Shown: positions 5,110-14,557 of the stretch, in pieces
How positions within the stretch are numbered: position 1 is the stretch's first letter
Layout: each line of letters begins with the position of its first letter
Made by a program: the position numbers and the translations under genes
Assembly (NCBI GenBank): GCA_011526565.1
Contig: WYBL01000081.1
Location: 62,001-126,000, forward strand
Length of the DNA: 64,000 bases
Direction: 5' to 3'
From: Acidobacteriota bacterium
Lineage (GTDB): Bacteria; Acidobacteriota; Vicinamibacteria; Fen-336
Notes under the pieces: generated by a model
Database searches by the model: none
Seen by the model: only the letters and a program-made list of their open reading frames with translations
What the model was told of the DNA's origin: nothing

Positions 5110-5200
5110 GCTGCGCCCAGCGCGCTGGATCGTTCAAGCCTTCGGACGCGGGAACGTGACAAGCTCGCGATCGGCGTGCGGGGGCGCGTCGGAGAGCCGC

Positions 5201-7021
5201 ATGAAGAGCACACCGATGGCGTGGGGACTCGCGGCCGCACTCGCCGCGGCGCTGGCACCGCACGGCGCGGCCGCGGACGACGCCGTGGGCCGCGAGCTGG
5301 AGGCGCTGAAGCAGCGGGCGGCGGCGACCCATGCCGACGAGTTCTGGGCCCAGGTGCAGCCGGGCGCGAAGGACCTGCTCGAGCGCGCCGGCCAGGCCTA
5401 CGCCGGCGGCCACCAGCGGGCCGCGCTGTACCGGCTCTCGGCCGCGCGGCAACTGCTGGAGGCGTTCCGCTACGTGTCCGCCCAGCGCGAGACGCGCGAC
5501 CAGCAGGCCGCGTTCGACGCCGAGTGGAAGCGCGCGGGCGAGCAGATCGCGGCGACGCCGCGGGCGACGACCGTGCGCGGCTCCGCGTTCCACCGCGCGC
5601 TCGCCGAGGCCGCGCTCGGCGAGGTCCGCGTCTACCACGAGGCCAGCCTCGAGTACGGCCACGCCACGCAGCCGCTGTTCGGGCTCTTCTACATCGGCCA
5701 GGCCTTCGCCTCGCGCGACACCGACGCCTTCGTGGCGGGGCTCTCCGCCGAGCCGGAGGGCGCGCTGCCCCCGCTGCGCTCCCTGGAACCCGAGCTCGAC
5801 GCGCTCGAGAGCGAGCTGCTGGCCGCCTACGAGCCGCCGCGCTCGATCGACGACCACCCGCGCTTCATCGCCGCCAGCGGAGCGTTGAAGCAGGCCCGCG
5901 AGCTGGACGCGGCCGGGCTGCGCTTCGGCGCGCTGCTGCGCTACCTGGAAGCCGCGCTGCGCTCGGCGGTGCTGCGCGGTCAGCCGCAGCCGATCGACGA
6001 GACCGCGGCGCGGGCGAAAGCCGCCGAGTGGGAGCCACGGCTCGCCGCGGGCGACCACTCGCTGGCCCGCCTGTTCGTCGAGGTGGCGTTGTCGGACAGC
6101 GCGCACCCGGGGCCCGAGGGCCGCGGCCGGCTGACGGCGGGAGTCGTGTTCGCCGACCTGCTGCCGCGTTACTTCGCGTCCTTCGCTCCCGCCCCGCCGC
6201 GGCCGCCGCGGCGGCCCGCCAGGGTCACCGTCACGCTGGTGCGCTGGCCCTACACCTGAAACGTCTCCGATCCAGCAGGTCTGCTGGCACGCGCCGTGGC
6301 GTCTTCGTTCGGGGACGACGTGAAGTTCGTGGTCGAGAACTACGGGGACTCGGAGCTGGCGCAGCGCTTCGGGGTGACGCGCTACCCCGCCATCTTCGTG
6401 GACGACGTGCTGGTCGCCAAGCCGAAGGACTTCGGCTTCTACGGCAAGGGCGAAGGCGGCGGCGACGGCCGCTACACGCCGTGGCGCAGCGCGGCGTCGC
6501 ACGAGCGCTTCCAGGCCGACCTGAAGAAGATGATCGAGCTGACGCTGGCGGGCCGCCGCGACGACGCCCGGTCCCGCGGCGCGGCGCACGAGGCCGCGGT
6601 GTCGCAGGTCGCGAGCCTGCCCGACTTCTCCCTCGTCGACCTCGAGGGGCGGGCGTTGTCGAAGGCCGATCTCGCCGGCCGCGCCGTCGCGGTCGAGTTC
6701 TGGGCCACGTGGTGTCCGCCCTGCCGCGGCACCCTGTCGTGGCTCGGCGAGGTGCAGCGGCGCTTCGGCGACCGGCTGGCGGTGCTGGCGCTGGCGATCG
6801 AGTCGGACGAGGCCGACGTGAAGAAGCTGCTCGCCGAGCTGGGCGTGCCGCTGCGCGGCGCGATGGCCCCGCCCGAGGTCGCGCGCGCGTTCGGCGACGT
6901 CACCTCGGTGCCGACGCTGCTGCTGTTCGACCGCGAGGGCCGCGCGGCGGCCGCCTACTACGGCGCGCCGCCGGGGCTGCACGCGGAGGCGGAGGCGAAG
7001 CTCGCGGAGCTGCTGAAGTAG
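5201..7021 (+). CDS. exported selenoprotein: helical N-domain, Sec-containing thioredoxin fold, TlpA-like thioredoxin (UGA at 6257-6259 read as Sec)
   Basis: I annotate one 606-residue protein starting at ATG 5201 (GGAG upstream) with TGA 6257-6259 decoded as selenocysteine 353. Residues 1-26 are a Sec signal peptide ending GAAADD. Residues 27-335 are helical and not recognised. Before the TGA lies a beta strand, VTVTLVRWPYT. After it, in the same frame, come a helix (DPAGLLARAVASSFG), a strand (DDVKFVVENYG) and the cis-Pro loop VTRYPAIFVDD, so the TGA falls exactly at the thioredoxin active-site position. Neither half makes a complete fold alone. Residues about 470-606 are a TlpA/redoxin domain with WCPPC (C505, C508). 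Direct evidence is the frame continuity and the hairpin after the TGA. Selenocysteine insertion is inferred; no sel genes lie in the window. The alternative is two separate genes, with a second start at GTG 6296 that lacks a ribosome site. Confidence 0.8.
6257..6287 (+). promoter_or_regulatory. bacterial SECIS-like element (UGA plus downstream hairpin)
   Basis: TGA at 6257-6259 is followed after 12 nt by a perfect hairpin: CCAGCA (6272-6277), loop GGTC (6278-6281), TGCTGG (6282-6287). There are 18 nt between the UGA and the apical loop, and the loop begins with GG. The known bacterial SECIS consensus is an apical loop of 3-14 nt with a G among its first two bases, a stem of at least 4 bp, and 16-37 nt from UGA to loop. 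All are met. The element would recruit SelB-Sec-tRNA. Confidence 0.75.
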
Positions 7022-7029
7022 CGCGCGGC

Positions 7030-10000
7030 TCAGCCGCGCGCCGCCGGCAGCGTGAAGCTGAAGGTGGCGCCGCGCCCGGGCACGCTTTCGACCCAGATGC
7101 GGCCGCCGTGGGCCTCGACCGCGAGCCGGCAGAAGTGCAGGCCGAGGCCGGTGCCGCTGCGCGGGTCGCGGCCGGCCGAGAACTTCTCGAACAGCCGCTC
7201 GTGCAGCTCCGGGCCGATGCCGGGACCGCTGTCCTCGACGGCCAGGCGCACGAAGCCTCCGGTGCCGTCGGGGCGCGCGAACACGCGCACCGCGCCGCCG
7301 CCGGGCGTGAACTTGATCGCGTTGCCGACCAGGTTCTGCAGCACCCGCAGCACCAGCGTGCGGTCGGCGTCGGCGGCCAGCATCTCGGGCTGGGCGTCGC
7401 ACGACAATCGCAGCAGCTTGCGCTCGGCCAGCGGCAGCTCGAGCTCCGCGATCTCCTGCAGCAGCGGCAGCAGCGGCACGGTCTCGCGCTCGACCGGCAT
7501 CGCCCCGCCCTCCAGGCGGCTGACGTCGAGCAGCGTCTCGACGAGCCCGAGCAGGCGGTGGCCGCCTCCAGTCGCAGCCCGCAGGATCTGGCGCTGCGCG
7601 TCCGAGAGCTGGTCGCGGGCGGTGGCGGAGAGGATGTCGAGCGAGCCCATGATCGCCGTCAGCGGGTTCTTGAGGTCGTGGACGACGGTGTGGGCCAGGT
7701 CCTCGCGCAGGCGCTCGAGCTGCTTGCGCCCGGAGACGTCCTCGGCGATGCCGGCGAAGCGCAGCAGCTCGCCCTGCTCGCCGCGCACGGGGAACTCGCG
7801 GACGTGGACCCAGCGCACCGGCCCCGACGGGGGAACCACCCGGTACTCGAGCTCGTAGCCGTCGTGCGCCGCGAGCGCCGCCTGCAGCGCGGCGCGGTCG
7901 TCGGCGTGGGCGGCCGCCAGCAGCTCGCCGACGTCGGCCAGCAGCGCGCTCCGCGGCCGGCCCCAGACCCGCTCGTAGGCCGGGCTCGCGTAGAGCACGC
8001 GTTCGCCGTCGGGGGCGCGCAGGAAGAACACGCTCTCGATGTTCTCGGCCAGCTCGCGGAAGCGCTCCTCGCTCTCGCGCAGCCGGGCCTGCGCCGCCCG
8101 CTCCTCGGTCACGTCCTGCGCGAAGCCGATCACGTAGGCCGAGCCGTCCGGCGGCTCGCGCTTGACGTTGCGGTAGCGCCAGACGTGGACGGCGCCGTCG
8201 GCGTCGAGGATGTGCAGCAGGCCCTCGGCCTGGCCCGTCTCGCGGATCTCGCGCAGGTAGGCGTCGAACCCCGGCAGCGCCTCGGCGGGCAGGAACTCGC
8301 GCAGGCTGCGGCCCTGCATCGCCGCGGCCTGGCGGCCGAGCGAGCCGGCCGCCGCGCTGTTGACCGACAGCAGCACGCCGTCGAGGTCGTGGGTGCAGAT
8401 CAGGCCCAGGCTCTGCTCGAAGAGGTCGCGGTAGCGCTCCTCGCTCTTGGCGGCCGCCTGCTGGGCCACCGTGCGATCGGCCAGTTCCTGCCGGGCCTGG
8501 GCGAACAGCCGGGCGTTCTCCAGCGCGATCGAGGCCAGCTCGCCGAAGCGCGCGAGCTGCTCGGCTTCGGCCGGCGTGAAGCGCCGCTGCGAGACCGTGT
8601 CATGGGCCAGGCCGAGCGCGCCCGCGACCCGCCCGCCGAAGCGCAGCGGCACGGCCAGCAGCGCCTGCAGGCGGCCGGGCGGAACCTGGGGCGAGCGACC
8701 GACCCAGGTGTCGTACTCGTCGACCAGCACCGCGGTGCCGGTCTGCCACACCCGGCCGACCGCGCCTTCGCCCGGCTGCACGTGGAGGTCGAGCGGCTGG
8801 CGGCCGAGCGCGACCCGGCAGCGCAGGTGGCTGCCGCCGCCCGCCTCGAGGTAGAGGAAGCCCTCGGGCGCGCCGAGCAGCGCCGCCGCCCGCGAGACCA
8901 GCATCTCGAGCAGCGGCTCGACGTCGAGCCGGTTCATCACCGCCAGCGCGGTCTCGTTGAGGGAGGCGAGGTAGGCGCCCTGGCGCCGCAGCTCGGACTC
9001 GGCCGCCTCCCGCTCGGAGAGCTCGCGCAGCGCCATGTCGTGCAGCCGCGCGTGCTCGATCGCGATGGCGGCGTGGGCGGCGAACGCCTCGGCCGCCCGC
9101 GCGTGCGTCTCGCGATAGGCGCCGGGCTCGCCGCGGTCGAGCACGATCACGCCGGTGACGCGCTCGCCGAAGCGCAGCGGGACGCCCAGCCAGGAGCGGC
9201 GGGCGCCACCGCCGATCTCGTCGCCTTCGGCGATCAGCGGCGCGCCACCGCGCACGACCTCGAGCCCGCGCGGGTCGCCCGCCGGGGCCGGGCCCGCCGG
9301 GCCAGGCCGCGTCGCCAGGCCACGGGCGCCGACCACCTCGAGGCGGTCGCCGCGGAGCTGCTGCACCGAGGCACCGTCGTAGCGCACGACGGCGCCGAGT
9401 TCGGCGAGGATGCGATCGAGCACTTCTTCGAGGCCGATCGCGGAGCCGATCGCCTCGGCCGCACCCAGCAGCCGCACGGCCTCCGCTCGCGAGGCCTCGG
9501 CGCGTTCCTTCGCCTCGGCCAGGCTCTGGGTGCGGTCCTCGACCAGCGCCGTCAGCTCGCGCTCCCGCGAGCGCAGCGCGCGCATCCGCAACTGGTGGGC
9601 CCCGAGCACGAGGGCCAGCAGCGCGAGCCCCGCGAGCACGAAGAAGGCGCGGGTCTCGTGGAAGCGTGGCGGCACGACCAGCGCGAGCGCCGCGCTGCCG
9701 TCGCTCCACGGCCCGTCGCCGTTGCGTGCCGCGACACGGAAGACGTACTCGCCGGGCGGCAGCTTCGTGTACTCCACGAGGCGCCGGTCGCCGGGCGGGC
9801 TCCAGGCCTCGTCGAAGCCCTCGAGCCGGAAGCGGAACTGCACGCGCGACGGTGCGCGCAGGGTGAGCGCAGTGAAGCGGAACTCGACGCGGCCGGGGCG
9901 GGTCGGCGTGCGCAACGCCGCCGCCGGGTGGGCGGCGCCGTCGATCACGACCTCCTCGACGACGACGGTCGGGGCGCGGTCGTCACCCTGCAGGCGGGCC

Positions 10001-11949
10001 GGGTCGAGCACGACGACGCCCTGGGTGGTCGCGAACCACAGGCGCCCCGCGCGGTCGCGGAAGCCCGCCGGCTGGCCCGGGCCCGTGCACTGCGCGCTCT
10101 TCATGCCGTCGGTGCGGTCGAAGGTGCGCGGCGCGATGCGGGCCAGGTCACCGGCGGCGCGCGCGCGCAGCTCGTGCTTGCCCACCCGGGAGATGCCGCG
10201 GCTGGTGCCGAGCCACAGGTGGCCGCTGCCGTCGTCGCGGAGCTGGGTCACGGCGTCGCTCGGCAGGCCGTCCGCGGAGCCGAGCGCTCGGAATCGCTCG
10301 CCCTGGCGCCAGGCGACGCCGCCGTTGGTGCCGAGCCACAGGGTGCCCTCCGAGTCGACGAAGACCGCCAGCACCAGGTTGGAGGGCAGGCCGTGCTCGG
10401 TCGTGAACACTTCGAAGCGGCGGCCGTCGAAGCGCACGAGGCCGGCGCCGTCGGTGCCCGCCCAGAGCGCACCGTCCGCGTCTTCGGCGAGCCCGATCAC
10501 CGAGTTCGCGGGCAGGCCGTCGGCGACCCGGTAGCTGCGCCAGCGGCCCGCCTCGCGGACGGAGAGGCCGTCGATGGTGGCGGCCCACACCCGTCCCGCG
10601 CGGTCGACCATCACGCCGCGCACGTTGTCGTTGGCGAGGCCGTCGGCCGCGCGATGCACGGCGAAGCGCCCGTCGGGAGCGCGGCGCCAGACTCCGGCGC
10701 CGTAGGTGCCGATCCACAGGCCACCCTCGGCGTCTTCGGCCAGCGAGCGCACCGCGATGCCGCGCGGCCACGGAGTCGCCACCGGCTCGAAGCGCCCGTC
10801 GCGCATCCGGTCGAGGCCGCCCGCGGTGCCGGCCCACAGGGTGCCGGCGCGGTCTTCGAGCGTCGTGTAGGCGAAATCGCGCGAGAGCCCCTCGCGGGTC
10901 GTGTACGAGGTGACGCTGCCGTCGCGCAGCCGGGCCAGGCCGGCGCCGTTGGTGCCGACCCAGAGCGAGCCCTCGTGATCGAGCCACAGCGAGTAGACGA
11001 CGTCGGCGGGCAGGCCCTCGGCCGTCGTCGTCGTGGCCAGCCGGCGGCCGTCGAAGCGGGCCAGGCCGCCACCGCTGGTGCCGACCCACAACGTGCCCTC
11101 GCCGTCCTCGCGGACCGCCGCGACGTGGGCCGCGCGCAGCGGCTCGAGACCCGGCGGCAGCGGCTGGACCCGATCCCCGGCGAAGGCGACGAGGCCGCCG
11201 CCCGCCGTGCCCACCCACACGCCGCCGGCGGCGCGTGGGGCGACCGTGTTGAGCAGTTGCGCCGGCAGCCCGTGGCGCTCGTCGATGCGGGCCCAGGTGC
11301 CGTCGGGCGCGCGGCGGCGCAGGCCCTCGCCGAGGGTGGCGGCCCACAGGGTGCCGTCCTGCTCCTGGGCCAGCGCGATCACGACCCGGCCCGCGTCCTC
11401 GATCGGGACCGCCTCGAAGCGGCCGCGATGGTGGCGCACGAGGCCGCCGCCGTTGGTGCCGATCCAGACTGCGCCGTCGCGGACGTCGGCGTGCAGCGCG
11501 CGCACGATGTCCGAGGTGAGTCCCTGCTCGCGCGTGAAGCGCTCGAAGCTGCCGCCGTGCAGGCGGGTCAGGCCGCCGCCGTTGGTGCCGATCCACAGGG
11601 CGCCGTCGCGGTCCTCGCACAGGGCGCGAATGCCGTTGTTGCCCAACTGCGGGGTGTTGGCCCGGTTGTAGACGGTGAAGCGCACGCCGTCGAAGCGGGC
11701 CAGGCCCTCGAAAGTGCCCGCCCACAGGTAGCCCTGGCGGGTCTGCAGCACCGCGTTGACGGTGGCGTTGGGCAGACCCTGGTCGAGGTTCCAGGCGTCG
11801 AGTCCGTACTGGGTGAGGGCCTTGCCGGCGTCGAGGCGGCCCTGCGCGTCCGCGGGAGCGGACACGAGAGCCGCGGCGAGCGCAATCGGGGTGGCGAGTC
11901 GGCGAGGGAGCAAGCGGGGCGTGGCCCTTCGGAGGAGCGGACCCCTCAC
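7030..11949 (-). CDS. hybrid-type sensor histidine kinase with periplasmic two-component-regulator propeller
   Basis: About 1639 residues from GTG 11949; a TTG at 11913 is the alternative, keeping the signal peptide (ATPIALAAALVSAPADAQ). Order: repeated Reg_prop blades (LWIGTNGGGLTRL and variants, residues about 50-600), Y_Y_Y domain (about 695-750), one membrane helix (about 766-786), two GAF domains (about 826-973 and 1000-1153), two PAS domains (about 1173-1406), HisKA with phospho-acceptor His in VVHDLKNPL (about residue 1424), then HATPase_c with NLVGNAIKF and GTGLGLHFC boxes. No receiver or HTH domain follows, unlike the Bacteroides hybrid two-component systems, so a separate response regulator is needed; none is adjacent. 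The ligand is unknown. The gene is divergent from the kinase-like gene at 12007 and convergent with the selenoprotein gene, 8 bp apart. Confidence 0.88.
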   Translation of the reverse strand: MRGPLLRRATPRLLPRRLATPIALAAALVSAPADAQGRLDAGKALTQYGLDAWNLDQGLPNATVNAVLQTRQGYLWAGTFEGLARFDGVRFTVYNRANTPQLGNNGIRALCEDRDGALWIGTNGGGLTRLHGGSFERFTREQGLTSDIVRALHADVRDGAVWIGTNGGGLVRHHRGRFEAVPIEDAGRVVIALAQEQDGTLWAATLGEGLRRRAPDGTWARIDERHGLPAQLLNTVAPRAAGGVWVGTAGGGLVAFAGDRVQPLPPGLEPLRAAHVAAVREDGEGTLWVGTSGGGLARFDGRRLATTTTAEGLPADVVYSLWLDHEGSLWVGTNGAGLARLRDGSVTSYTTREGLSRDFAYTTLEDRAGTLWAGTAGGLDRMRDGRFEPVATPWPRGIAVRSLAEDAEGGLWIGTYGAGVWRRAPDGRFAVHRAADGLANDNVRGVMVDRAGRVWAATIDGLSVREAGRWRSYRVADGLPANSVIGLAEDADGALWAGTDGAGLVRFDGRRFEVFTTEHGLPSNLVLAVFVDSEGTLWLGTNGGVAWRQGERFRALGSADGLPSDAVTQLRDDGSGHLWLGTSRGISRVGKHELRARAAGDLARIAPRTFDRTDGMKSAQCTGPGQPAGFRDRAGRLWFATTQGVVVLDPARLQGDDRAPTVVVEEVVIDGAAHPAAALRTPTRPGRVEFRFTALTLRAPSRVQFRFRLEGFDEAWSPPGDRRLVEYTKLPPGEYVFRVAARNGDGPWSDGSAALALVVPPRFHETRAFFVLAGLALLALVLGAHQLRMRALRSRERELTALVEDRTQSLAEAKERAEASRAEAVRLLGAAEAIGSAIGLEEVLDRILAELGAVVRYDGASVQQLRGDRLEVVGARGLATRPGPAGPAPAGDPRGLEVVRGGAPLIAEGDEIGGGARRSWLGVPLRFGERVTGVIVLDRGEPGAYRETHARAAEAFAAHAAIAIEHARLHDMALRELSEREAAESELRRQGAYLASLNETALAVMNRLDVEPLLEMLVSRAAALLGAPEGFLYLEAGGGSHLRCRVALGRQPLDLHVQPGEGAVGRVWQTGTAVLVDEYDTWVGRSPQVPPGRLQALLAVPLRFGGRVAGALGLAHDTVSQRRFTPAEAEQLARFGELASIALENARLFAQARQELADRTVAQQAAAKSEERYRDLFEQSLGLICTHDLDGVLLSVNSAAAGSLGRQAAAMQGRSLREFLPAEALPGFDAYLREIRETGQAEGLLHILDADGAVHVWRYRNVKREPPDGSAYVIGFAQDVTEERAAQARLRESEERFRELAENIESVFFLRAPDGERVLYASPAYERVWGRPRSALLADVGELLAAAHADDRAALQAALAAHDGYELEYRVVPPSGPVRWVHVREFPVRGEQGELLRFAGIAEDVSGRKQLERLREDLAHTVVHDLKNPLTAIMGSLDILSATARDQLSDAQRQILRAATGGGHRLLGLVETLLDVSRLEGGAMPVERETVPLLPLLQEIAELELPLAERKLLRLSCDAQPEMLAADADRTLVLRVLQNLVGNAIKFTPGGGAVRVFARPDGTGGFVRLAVEDSGPGIGPELHERLFEKFSAGRDPRSGTGLGLHFCRLAVEAHGGRIWVESVPGRGATFSFTLPAARG

Positions 11950-12006
11950 GCTACACGCGAGCGGCCTCGGCCTGCAACCGGTCGCGGCCGGCGTAAGCTC
12001 CTGCCG

Positions 12007-12957
12007 ATGAACGGTGACGTGGTCCTGATCGCCGGCCTGCCCGGCGCCGGCAAGACCACGCTGGCGCAGGGCCACGTCGCGCGCGGCTACGCGCGGCTCA
12101 ACCGCGACGACGCCGGCGGCACGCTGCGCGACCTGCTGCCGGCGCTCGACGCGCTCCTCGCCGCCGGCCGCGACCGCGTCGTGCTCGACAACACGTACGG
12201 CGCGCGCGCCGCCCGCGCCGAGGTGATCTCGGTCGCCCGCGCGCGCGGCGTGCCGGTGCGCTGCGTGTGGCTGCGCACCGGCCTCGAGCAGGCGCAGGTC
12301 AACGTCGCGCGGCGGATGGTCCGGCGCCACGGGAAGCTGCTGGCCGGCGCCGAACTGCGGCGGGCGGGCCGCAGCGACCCCGGCGCCTACGGGCCCGAGG
12401 TGCTGGTGCGCCACCAGCGCGGCTTCGAACCGCCGCGGCTCGAGGAGGGCTTCGCCTCCGTCGAGGAGCGGCCGTTCGTGCCGGAGCCGCCGAAACACGA
12501 CGCACGCGGCGCGATCCTGCTCCGCTACGAGGGCGTGCTGCACCACTCCCGCTCCGGGGCCCGCGCGCCGCGCGACGTCGGCGACGCGGTCGTGCCGGCG
12601 GGGCGCGGCGCTGCGCTGCGCCGCCACCTGCGCGAAGGGCGGTCGCTGGCCCTCGGCTACTCGTGGCGGCCCGAGCGCGCCGGCGGAGCGACGGCCGACG
12701 ACACGTTCGCGGCGCTGCTCGCGCACACCCATCGCGAGCTCGGCGTCGAGCTCGACGCGGTGCTCTGCCCGCACGGTGGCCGCCCCCCGGCCTGCTGGTG
12801 CCAGCCGCCGTTGCCGGGCCTGGCCGCGCTGCTCGTCGAGCGCCACGGCCTCGACCCCGCCCGCTGCCTGCTCGTCGGCGCGGACGCCGCCGATCTCGCC
12901 CTGGCCCGCCGGATGGGCTTCGCCTTCCGCTCCGCCGACCGTTTCTTCCGGGCCTGA
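12007..12957 (+). CDS. P-loop polynucleotide-kinase-like protein with degenerate HAD phosphatase domain
   Basis: 316 residues from ATG 12007. Residues 1-150 are an AAA_33/PNK-type kinase: Walker A GLPGAGKTT (10-18), RLNRDDAG, and DNTYGARAARAEVI. From about residue 168 the protein resembles the HisB-N/GmhB branch of HAD phosphatases. It keeps the zinc-site pattern CPHG...CWC (C254, H256, C263, C265) and the final VGADAADLALARRMGF motif. The first motif, normally DxDGT, reads RYEGV: the nucleophile Asp is Arg173 and the acid/base Asp is Glu175. The usual RKPxPG Lys is also absent (CQPPLPG). The phosphatase half is therefore probably inactive. The layout recalls PNKP-type end-healing enzymes in reverse order; the true substrate is unknown. 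Confidence 0.75.
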   Translation: MNGDVVLIAGLPGAGKTTLAQGHVARGYARLNRDDAGGTLRDLLPALDALLAAGRDRVVLDNTYGARAARAEVISVARARGVPVRCVWLRTGLEQAQVNVARRMVRRHGKLLAGAELRRAGRSDPGAYGPEVLVRHQRGFEPPRLEEGFASVEERPFVPEPPKHDARGAILLRYEGVLHHSRSGARAPRDVGDAVVPAGRGAALRRHLREGRSLALGYSWRPERAGGATADDTFAALLAHTHRELGVELDAVLCPHGGRPPACWCQPPLPGLAALLVERHGLDPARCLLVGADAADLALARRMGFAFRSADRFFRA

Positions 12958-13040: not shown

Positions 13041-13631
13041 GTGGGCCAGAAGAAGCAGAAGGGGCCGGCGAGCGACGAGGCGATGTGCCTGGGACTGCCG
13101 GTGCGCGAGGAGCGCGACGACGAGGCGCGGCGGCTTCTGGACGGCATCCAGTCGCTGGTGCGGCGCTTCGCGGTGGCCGAGCGCGCCGACGTCAACTGCT
13201 GCGGCCTGACGGTCGCCCAGGCGGCGACGATCGAGGCGCTGGCCGTCGTCGGCCCGATGCGGCTCGGCGCGCTGGGCCAGCGGCTGGGGGTGCAGGCCTC
13301 CACCCTGACGCGCAACGTCGATCGCCTCGAGAAGGCGGGGCTGGTGCGGCGCGAGGTCGACCCGGAGGACGCCCGCGCCGCCCGCGTCGCCCTGACGGCG
13401 GGCGGCCGCAAGGCGGCGCGCCAGGTCGAACGCCAGGAGGAGGCCTTCGCGCGCACGGTGCTCGAGCGGATCCCCGCCGAGCGCCGGGCCCATGCGCTGG
13501 GCGCGTTGCAGGACCTGCTGGTGGCCGTGCGGGAGGCGACCGAGAGCTGCTGCCCGGGCGCCTTCGACCACCTGATGACCGATTTCCCGGGGGAGTCGTG
13601 CTGCGGCCCGGCCGCAGACTCGAAGTGCTGA
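13041..13631 (+). CDS. MarR-family regulator with Cys-rich N- and C-termini (probable arsenic responder)
   Basis: 196 residues from GTG 13041, behind GAGGAGG. The winged helix is clear: LGALGQRLGVQASTLTRNVD (recognition) and the wing VRREVDPEDARAARVALT. Unusual cysteines are C16, the pair in DVNCCGLT before the DNA-binding domain, and the tail SCCPGAF...ESCCGP...SKC. The next gene, 11 bp downstream, is an arsenite methyltransferase carrying the same SCCGP motif. As(III) binding by vicinal thiols that releases the operator at 13001-13019 is the simplest reading, but it is inferred from context. Confidence 0.85.
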   Translation: MGQKKQKGPASDEAMCLGLPVREERDDEARRLLDGIQSLVRRFAVAERADVNCCGLTVAQAATIEALAVVGPMRLGALGQRLGVQASTLTRNVDRLEKAGLVRREVDPEDARAARVALTAGGRKAARQVERQEEAFARTVLERIPAERRAHALGALQDLLVAVREATESCCPGAFDHLMTDFPGESCCGPAADSKC

Positions 13632-13642
13632 GGAGGATGGCG

Positions 13643-14557
13643 ATGACGGCGACGAGCGTGGAGACGAAGAAGGCGAAGAGCTGCTGCGGGCCGGAGTGCT
13701 GCGCGGACGAGGCTCCGAAGGCAGAGGCCGCGAAGCCGGCGGCCGCGCCCGAGCGGATGGTCGCGGAGGTCCGCGAGAAGTACGGCCGCATTGCCGCCGA
13801 GGGCGGCTCCTGCTGCGGCCCCAACTCCTGCGGCGGGACCTCCGAGGTCCCGGTCTCGCTCGGCATCGGCTACAGCCCGGAGGAGCTCGCCGCACTGCCC
13901 GAGGGCGCGAACCTCGGCCTCGGCTGCGGCGCGCCGCTCGCGGCGCTCGCCCCGCGGCGCGGCGAGACCGTGCTCGACCTCGGCTCCGGCGCTGGCATCG
14001 ACGTGCTGCTCGCCGCCCGCGCGGTCGGCGAGGAGGGCCGCGCGATCGGCATCGACATGACGCCCGAGATGCTGAAGAAGGCCCGCGCCAACGCGGCGAA
14101 GGTCGGCGCCTGGAACGCCGAGTTCCGCGAGGGCCGGCTCGAGGAGCTGCCGGTCGCCAGCGCCTCGGTCGACGCCGTCACCAGCAACTGCGTGATCAAC
14201 CTGGTGCCCGACAAGTCGAAGGTGTTCGCCGAGGTGGCGCGGGTGCTGAGGCCCGGCGGGCGGCTGGTGATCTCCGACATCGTGCTCGACGGAGCGCTGC
14301 CCGAGCGCATCGAGCGCGACGTCTACGCCTACGTCGGCTGCATCTCGGGCGCCGCACTGCGCGAGCGCTACTTCGGCTGGCTGCGCGCGGCCGGCTTCGC
14401 CGAGATCGAGGTGCTGAAGGACGTCGACTACCTCGCGATGCTGAAGGACACGGCACCCGAGGAGGCCGGCGCGGTGCTCGAGCGCACCGGCACGAAGTGG
14501 GAAGAGATCGAAGGCCGCGTCCGCTCGATCACCTTCCGCGCCCGCAAGGCCGCCTGA
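13643..14557 (+). CDS. arsM: arsenite S-adenosylmethionine methyltransferase
   Basis: 304 residues. ATG 13643 is preferred over ATG 13637 because AGGAGG (13631-13636) would touch the earlier one. The N-terminus has SCCGPECC and SCCGPNSC clusters. SAM motif I is DLGSGAGID (about 111-119). Cysteines C95 (GLGCGAP), C183 (NCVINL) and C233 (VGCISG) match the conserved As-binding cysteines of ArsM, including the 50-residue spacing between the last two. The enzyme methylates As(III) in the cytoplasm to volatile or exportable forms. It is cotranscribed with the MarR gene just upstream. Confidence 0.92.
   Translation: MTATSVETKKAKSCCGPECCADEAPKAEAAKPAAAPERMVAEVREKYGRIAAEGGSCCGPNSCGGTSEVPVSLGIGYSPEELAALPEGANLGLGCGAPLAALAPRRGETVLDLGSGAGIDVLLAARAVGEEGRAIGIDMTPEMLKKARANAAKVGAWNAEFREGRLEELPVASASVDAVTSNCVINLVPDKSKVFAEVARVLRPGGRLVISDIVLDGALPERIERDVYAYVGCISGAALRERYFGWLRAAGFAEIEVLKDVDYLAMLKDTAPEEAGAVLERTGTKWEEIEGRVRSITFRARKAA

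Follow-up and report, generated by a model that had tools for sequence, protein, structure and literature searches.

The described systems closest to the locus analysed here are the Sec-containing thioredoxins (Sec-Trx, with a UxxC centre) and the PDO/Grx-like proteins of TIGR02187, in which selenocysteine (Sec) ends strand 1 of a thioredoxin-like fold with a cis-proline loop and is specified through a bacterial SECIS element. In the UGC-containing TlpA proteins, with their WAxxUGC motif (cd02966, NF041054), Sec lies inside a TlpA/ResA-type domain. TlpA, ResA and CcmG are periplasmic reductases with a CPPC centre, and SelW/Rdx proteins have a small thioredoxin-like fold with a CxxU motif. SelW is a single-domain protein without an export signal.

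The window, a 64,000-nucleotide stretch of an Acidobacteriota genome (GCA_011526565.1, contig WYBL01000081.1, positions 62,001 to 126,000), contains a gene that shares features with each of these systems. We conclude that it most probably encodes a selenoprotein in which an in-frame UGA is decoded as Sec, and we put the probability of this reading at about 0.96. Its Sec domain has a SECIS as in Sec-Trx and TIGR02187 and is likely to share their fold, Sec position and cis-proline loop, but it has no resolving cysteine (UxxS), carries a WP(Y/F)TU motif, has nearly no cysteine relatives and scores 13.7 against a TIGR02187 cut-off of 185. The TlpA domain keeps its CPPC and Sec sits in a separate domain, in contrast to the UGC-containing TlpA proteins, and NF041054 gives 25.4 bits against its cut-off of 300. 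The C-terminal domain resembles the periplasmic reductases in its CPPC and, in the model, in its ResA-like structure, but here it is one part of a three-domain selenoprotein, with a ResA subfamily score of 55.7 against a cut-off of 170. SelW/Rdx gives the highest TM-score of the listed fold matches to the Sec domain (TMq 0.54, TMt 0.66), but the CxxU motif is absent from that domain and identity is 12%. The features are collected in Table 1.

Table 1. Features of the selenoprotein gene and of the sigma-factor fusion; positions are those of the window unless a locus is named.
Feature	Position	Strand	Basis
Shine-Dalgarno-like GGAG	5191..5194	+	sequence; 6 nt ahead of ATG
Selenoprotein gene, 606 codons + TAG, Sec = codon 353	5201..7021	+	translation with TGA = U
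Probable signal peptide (MKSTPMAWGLAAALAAALAPHGAAA)	5201..5275	+	inferred from sequence
N-terminal all-helical domain, without known family	5276..6181	+	AlphaFold2 helices; profile and PDB searches negative
Sec-containing thioredoxin-like domain (likely)	6218..6556	+	family alignments, AlphaFold2, Foldseek
Predicted Sec codon UGA, residue 353	6257..6259	+	TGA in 39 distinct homologues; TGC in Cys paralogue L087
Bacterial SECIS hairpin CCAGCA-GGUC-UGCUGG	6272..6287	+	pairing and synonymous lock
Presumed cis-proline P396 (RYPAIFV)	6386..6388	+	Y395 and P396 invariant across family
C-terminal TlpA/ResA-like thioredoxin domain	6614..6988	+	Pfam Redoxin, AhpC-TSA; Foldseek ResA
CPPC active site C505-C508	6713..6724	+	sequence; C505 and C508 invariant
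682-aa ECF sigma factor fused to Cys domain and helical domain	L088:8362-10410	minus	genome G817

The open frame proposed in the first-pass annotation, from ATG 5201 through TGA 6257-6259 to 7021, is reproduced exactly by translation with TGA as U; it closes at TAG 7019-7021, and in homologues sharing from 97% down to about 34% identity the frame likewise continues across this TGA. The two cysteines of the CPPC are the only ones in the predicted 606-residue product and, together with Sec353, its only chalcogen residues. Directly downstream and convergent with this gene lies a very long minus-strand frame (7030-12846) whose translation reads as a two-component-propeller hybrid sensor kinase. 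Farther on, 13041-14557 holds a probable MarR-type regulator with a Cys-rich tail and then an ArsM-like methyltransferase with several CCGP motifs, both recognised from their translations. An Rfam search over the window and a search of plasmids returned no match.

A list of standard-code reading frames divides the gene into 5156-6259 and 6296-7021, as would be the case if the UGA were a true stop, whether between two neighbouring genes, in a pseudogene or through a sequencing error. We regard this as very improbable, since the identical TGA stands at the Sec position in all 39 distinct Sec homologues, which come from independent assemblies of Acidobacteriota and Planctomycetota. These homologues were collected by whole-genome and contig searches with duplicates removed, span 97 to about 34% identity over the protein and derive nearly all from metagenome-assembled genomes. 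The residues on both sides of the codon, TLVRWP(Y/F)T before and xxSDPA after, are near-invariant, and few other stretches of the protein are as well conserved. The first-pass annotation had denied the second half the status of a gene of its own, and indeed no start codon lies between the TGA and the conserved codons that follow it. In several relatives a gene of its own, complete with signal peptide, encodes the Sec-TlpA part; only some 40-110 residues would come before the stop in such split genes, and a product ending at the UGA would consist of just a signal peptide and one strand. The first-pass annotation had also reasoned that homologues ending ahead of the UGA, or carrying a sense codon other than Cys there, would count against Sec; the homologues found keep the TGA, with no such codon among them, and the one sense codon is the TGC of a Cys paralogue. 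Matches without TGA, apart from that copy, start after the codon, and their loci all have the TGA. One actinobacterial hit of the genome scan (L061) proved to be an ordinary thioredoxin and was set aside. A UGA and an RNA signal shared by some 40 related genes therefore argue for a real selenoprotein family.

The source genome also carries the Sec machinery that was to be looked for outside the locus: a tRNA-Sec (selC; 75.1 bits, anticodon TCA), selA (514.6 bits), selB (314.7 bits, its reading frame intact until the contig end cuts the gene) and selD (358.1 bits). The selD gene (L065:1501-2421) itself has an in-frame UGA, in SCAG-U-ASKLGP, and thus encodes a SelD selenoprotein. The family occurs in 16 of 396 Acidobacteriota genomes; selA is present in all 16, compared with 252 of the 396 overall (p = 0.0006, with kinship ignored). 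It is also found in 15 of 18 other family-bearing genomes, some of which are the same organisms reached via another route, and the remaining three, which may be incomplete, show none. Homologues, SECIS conservation and Sec machinery together support the selenoprotein claimed in the first-pass annotation.

The bacterial SECIS model requires a stem of 4-16 bp, a loop of 3-9 nt whose first and last bases pair, a spacing of 16-37 nt, a G within the first two loop positions and a minimum free energy of at most -7.5 (PMC13188914). The claimed perfect 6-bp hairpin was recovered exactly, starting 12 nt past the UGA with 18 nt from the UGA to the loop, and it conforms to the published rules as had been stated (6 bp, GGUC or AGUU loop, 18 nt, -9.7 kcal/mol). 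Its energy is not unusual against shuffled sequences (z = 0.12); being ordinary for its composition, the hairpin owes its significance to conservation. Across the 36 members compared, codons +5 to +9 after the UGA are synonymously locked: Ala is GCA in 36/36, although GCA makes up 8% of Ala codons in these genes, the second Leu is CTG in 36/36 and Gly is GGT in 18/18, against an expected homozygosity of 0.36-0.41 at the hairpin codons. Codons outside the hairpin drift nearer to background usage, and the window gene, with a GC3 of 0.96, nevertheless uses CCA GCA GGT within it. Standard pairs fill 98.8% of the stem pair cells, and the lowest pair is a C-A mismatch in three members. The loop is GGUC in 18 members and AGUU in 18, with no mixed G-C/A-U states; the loop-closing pair can be exchanged only together with a synonymous CTG/TTG change in its distal partner, and at least three such joint changes are placed on a tree built without these columns. 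Because these independent events are too few to give a sign test power, the weight falls on the absence of mixed states and on the synonymous lock. By its pattern of substitution, the SECIS is under selection as RNA.

AlphaFold2 models built on family alignments divide the protein into helical, Sec thioredoxin-like and TlpA/ResA-like parts. The Sec domain (pLDDT 87.4) is predicted as beta-alpha-beta-alpha-beta-beta-alpha, and Foldseek relates it to thioredoxins, PDIs and SelW (best E 2e-3, TM 0.42-0.54), so that it is likely thioredoxin-like in the model. The block holding the Sec loop is among the least confident parts (pLDDT 71); for this reason, and given such modest fold matches, there is less certainty about the precise catalytic geometry around Sec. 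Where the first-pass annotation had drawn one thioredoxin fold with the UGA at its catalytic position, the domain spanning the UGA does model as thioredoxin-like, but the protein has three domains rather than one. The Sec motif, WP(Y/F)T-U-xxS, presents a single chalcogen with Ser at +3 and a cis-proline; it had been described as outside the common CxxU and UxxC forms, and UxxS is indeed found nearly throughout, with UxxC in a single member (L058). The invariant residues near Sec are R, W, P, T, D, A and L, and the family alignments contain no other conserved cysteine in this domain. The best Pfam match is Thioredoxin_3, at 13.5 bits against a cut-off of 24.8; the domain likewise falls under the cut-off of Thioredoxin (PF00085) and is without a CxxC or UxxC centre. 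A PDB sequence search with it gave no significant match, and no NCBIfam model (June 2026) had its curated cut-off reached by the Sec or the helical domain.

The helical domain is modelled mostly at a pLDDT of 84-98 by blocks and has no sequence match in Pfam, NCBIfam or the PDB; the full-length Foldseek list is dominated by the TlpA domain. The latter matches Redoxin (44.8 bits, cut-off 26.6) and AhpC-TSA (40, cut-off 26) in Pfam and ResA in Foldseek (E 3e-8, TMt 0.86), and with such a profile and a CxxC it belongs among the TlpA/ResA-like proteins. Of 396 Acidobacteriota genomes, the helical domain is found in exactly the 16 that have the Sec domain, either fused to it or adjacent. Several relatives (L014-L016, L057, L075, L079, L080 and L082) encode the helical domain separately, immediately upstream, and each Sec-TlpA gene that was read there brings a signal peptide of its own. 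The two genes overlap or adjoin at L015/L078, L016, L057, L075, L079, L080 and L082, and at L015/L078 and L016 the signal peptide of the Sec gene looks Tat-like (MQRRLVLKGL, MQRRDALKSL). No conserved gene neighbour of the family was found among the relatives' loci, and the neighbourhood thus gives no clue to the substrate.

A cysteine at the aligned position is a classical sign of a selenocysteine position, and the first-pass annotation had suggested searching for one at residue 353. Cys relatives are nearly absent from the family, but one was found, in the planctomycetal genome G817, where a TGA copy (domain order Sec-TlpA-helical) and a TGC copy lie 4.7 kb apart. The Cys copy reads VEVVVVRWPFL-C-RLSDPAS at the site, and in the DNA after the codon, cgactctcggacccggccagcatcctgtcc, the hairpin is lost. 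It follows an ECF sigma factor in the order sigma(r2-r4), one hydrophobic segment, Cys domain and helical domain, and may thus be a transmembrane redox sensor. Since it has no TlpA domain, at least one relative works without TlpA.

Comparison strongly supports decoding of the UGA as Sec353 by SelB and tRNA-Sec under the direction of the hairpin 12 nt downstream, and in the model this residue lies in the loop after strand 1 of a thioredoxin-like domain without a resolving cysteine of its own. From this anatomy a mode of action can be proposed. The protein is probably exported, and in the periplasm Sec353 would act as a nucleophile, its selenol attacking an oxidised substrate such as a disulfide, a sulfenic acid or a peroxide-type group. 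Given Ser at +3 and no local cysteine, the natural reductant would be the CPPC domain that the chain itself carries; it would reduce the resulting Se-S or Se-OH and could in turn be recharged by a membrane donor of the DsbD/CcdA type. The constant partner, the helical domain, probably either binds the substrate or keeps the domains together. We consider a Sec-CPPC relay within one chain somewhat more probable than its absence, and would place far less confidence in any specific substrate.

Peroxidase and sensing functions are the main rivals to such a relay, and neither excludes Sec decoding. Gpx- or Prx-like chemistry, in which the CPPC would resolve a selenenic acid, is unlikely: a single chalcogen with Ser at +3 would suit it, the TlpA domain supplies an internal reductant, and Prx-like and Gpx-like proteins are among the other single-Sec redox families that have UxxS or UxxT motifs (PMC13188914). 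Against this, the Sec domain is matched by neither Prx nor Gpx profiles and lacks the Prx signature PxxxTxxU. We give still less credence to the idea that the helical and Sec pair works in the envelope as a redox-sensing or signalling module and not as an enzyme with turnover. The two domains are always paired, and the Cys version, which a single hydrophobic segment joins to an ECF sigma factor, has kept the helical domain; yet this fusion was found only once, the fusion partner of the Sec versions is a CPPC TlpA domain, not a signalling one, and Sec is usually retained for catalysis. That Sec binds a metal or metalloid such as copper, arsenic or mercury for transport or assembly seems improbable. 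TlpA acts in copper-centre assembly, and the C-terminal domain has TlpA/ScoI-type proteins among its structural neighbours, but no second conserved ligand (a Cys, His or Met cluster) lies near Sec and no metal-related neighbour gene is conserved.

The family appears to be new with respect to current catalogues, with an unnamed earlier prediction being possible. In a 2026 inventory table of 119 prokaryotic selenoprotein families we recognised no entry with this motif and architecture, and the main texts of open-access papers on Acidobacteriota selenoproteins held nothing matching. The scarcity of Cys relatives may explain why the family was missed: methods that look for Cys/Sec pairs depend on such relatives, and so, by its authors' account, does deep-Sep (PMC12013277).

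In summary, a family is added to the 119 of the inventory, from phyla with little-studied selenoproteomes, and full-length sequences are now given for genes that come out in two pieces, broken at the UGA, under standard ORF calling. As a tentative generalisation, we propose that in this almost Sec-exclusive family the thioredoxin-like Sec domain makes up an obligate module of the envelope with the helical domain, serving as an enzyme with TlpA and, in the Cys form, as the outward portion of an ECF sigma factor. With the obligate pairing and a Cys version carried by a sigma factor, a new envelope redox system becomes open to testing and, if the proposal is true, it would be a periplasmic redox system of a new type, dependent on selenium and with a branch devoted to sensing.
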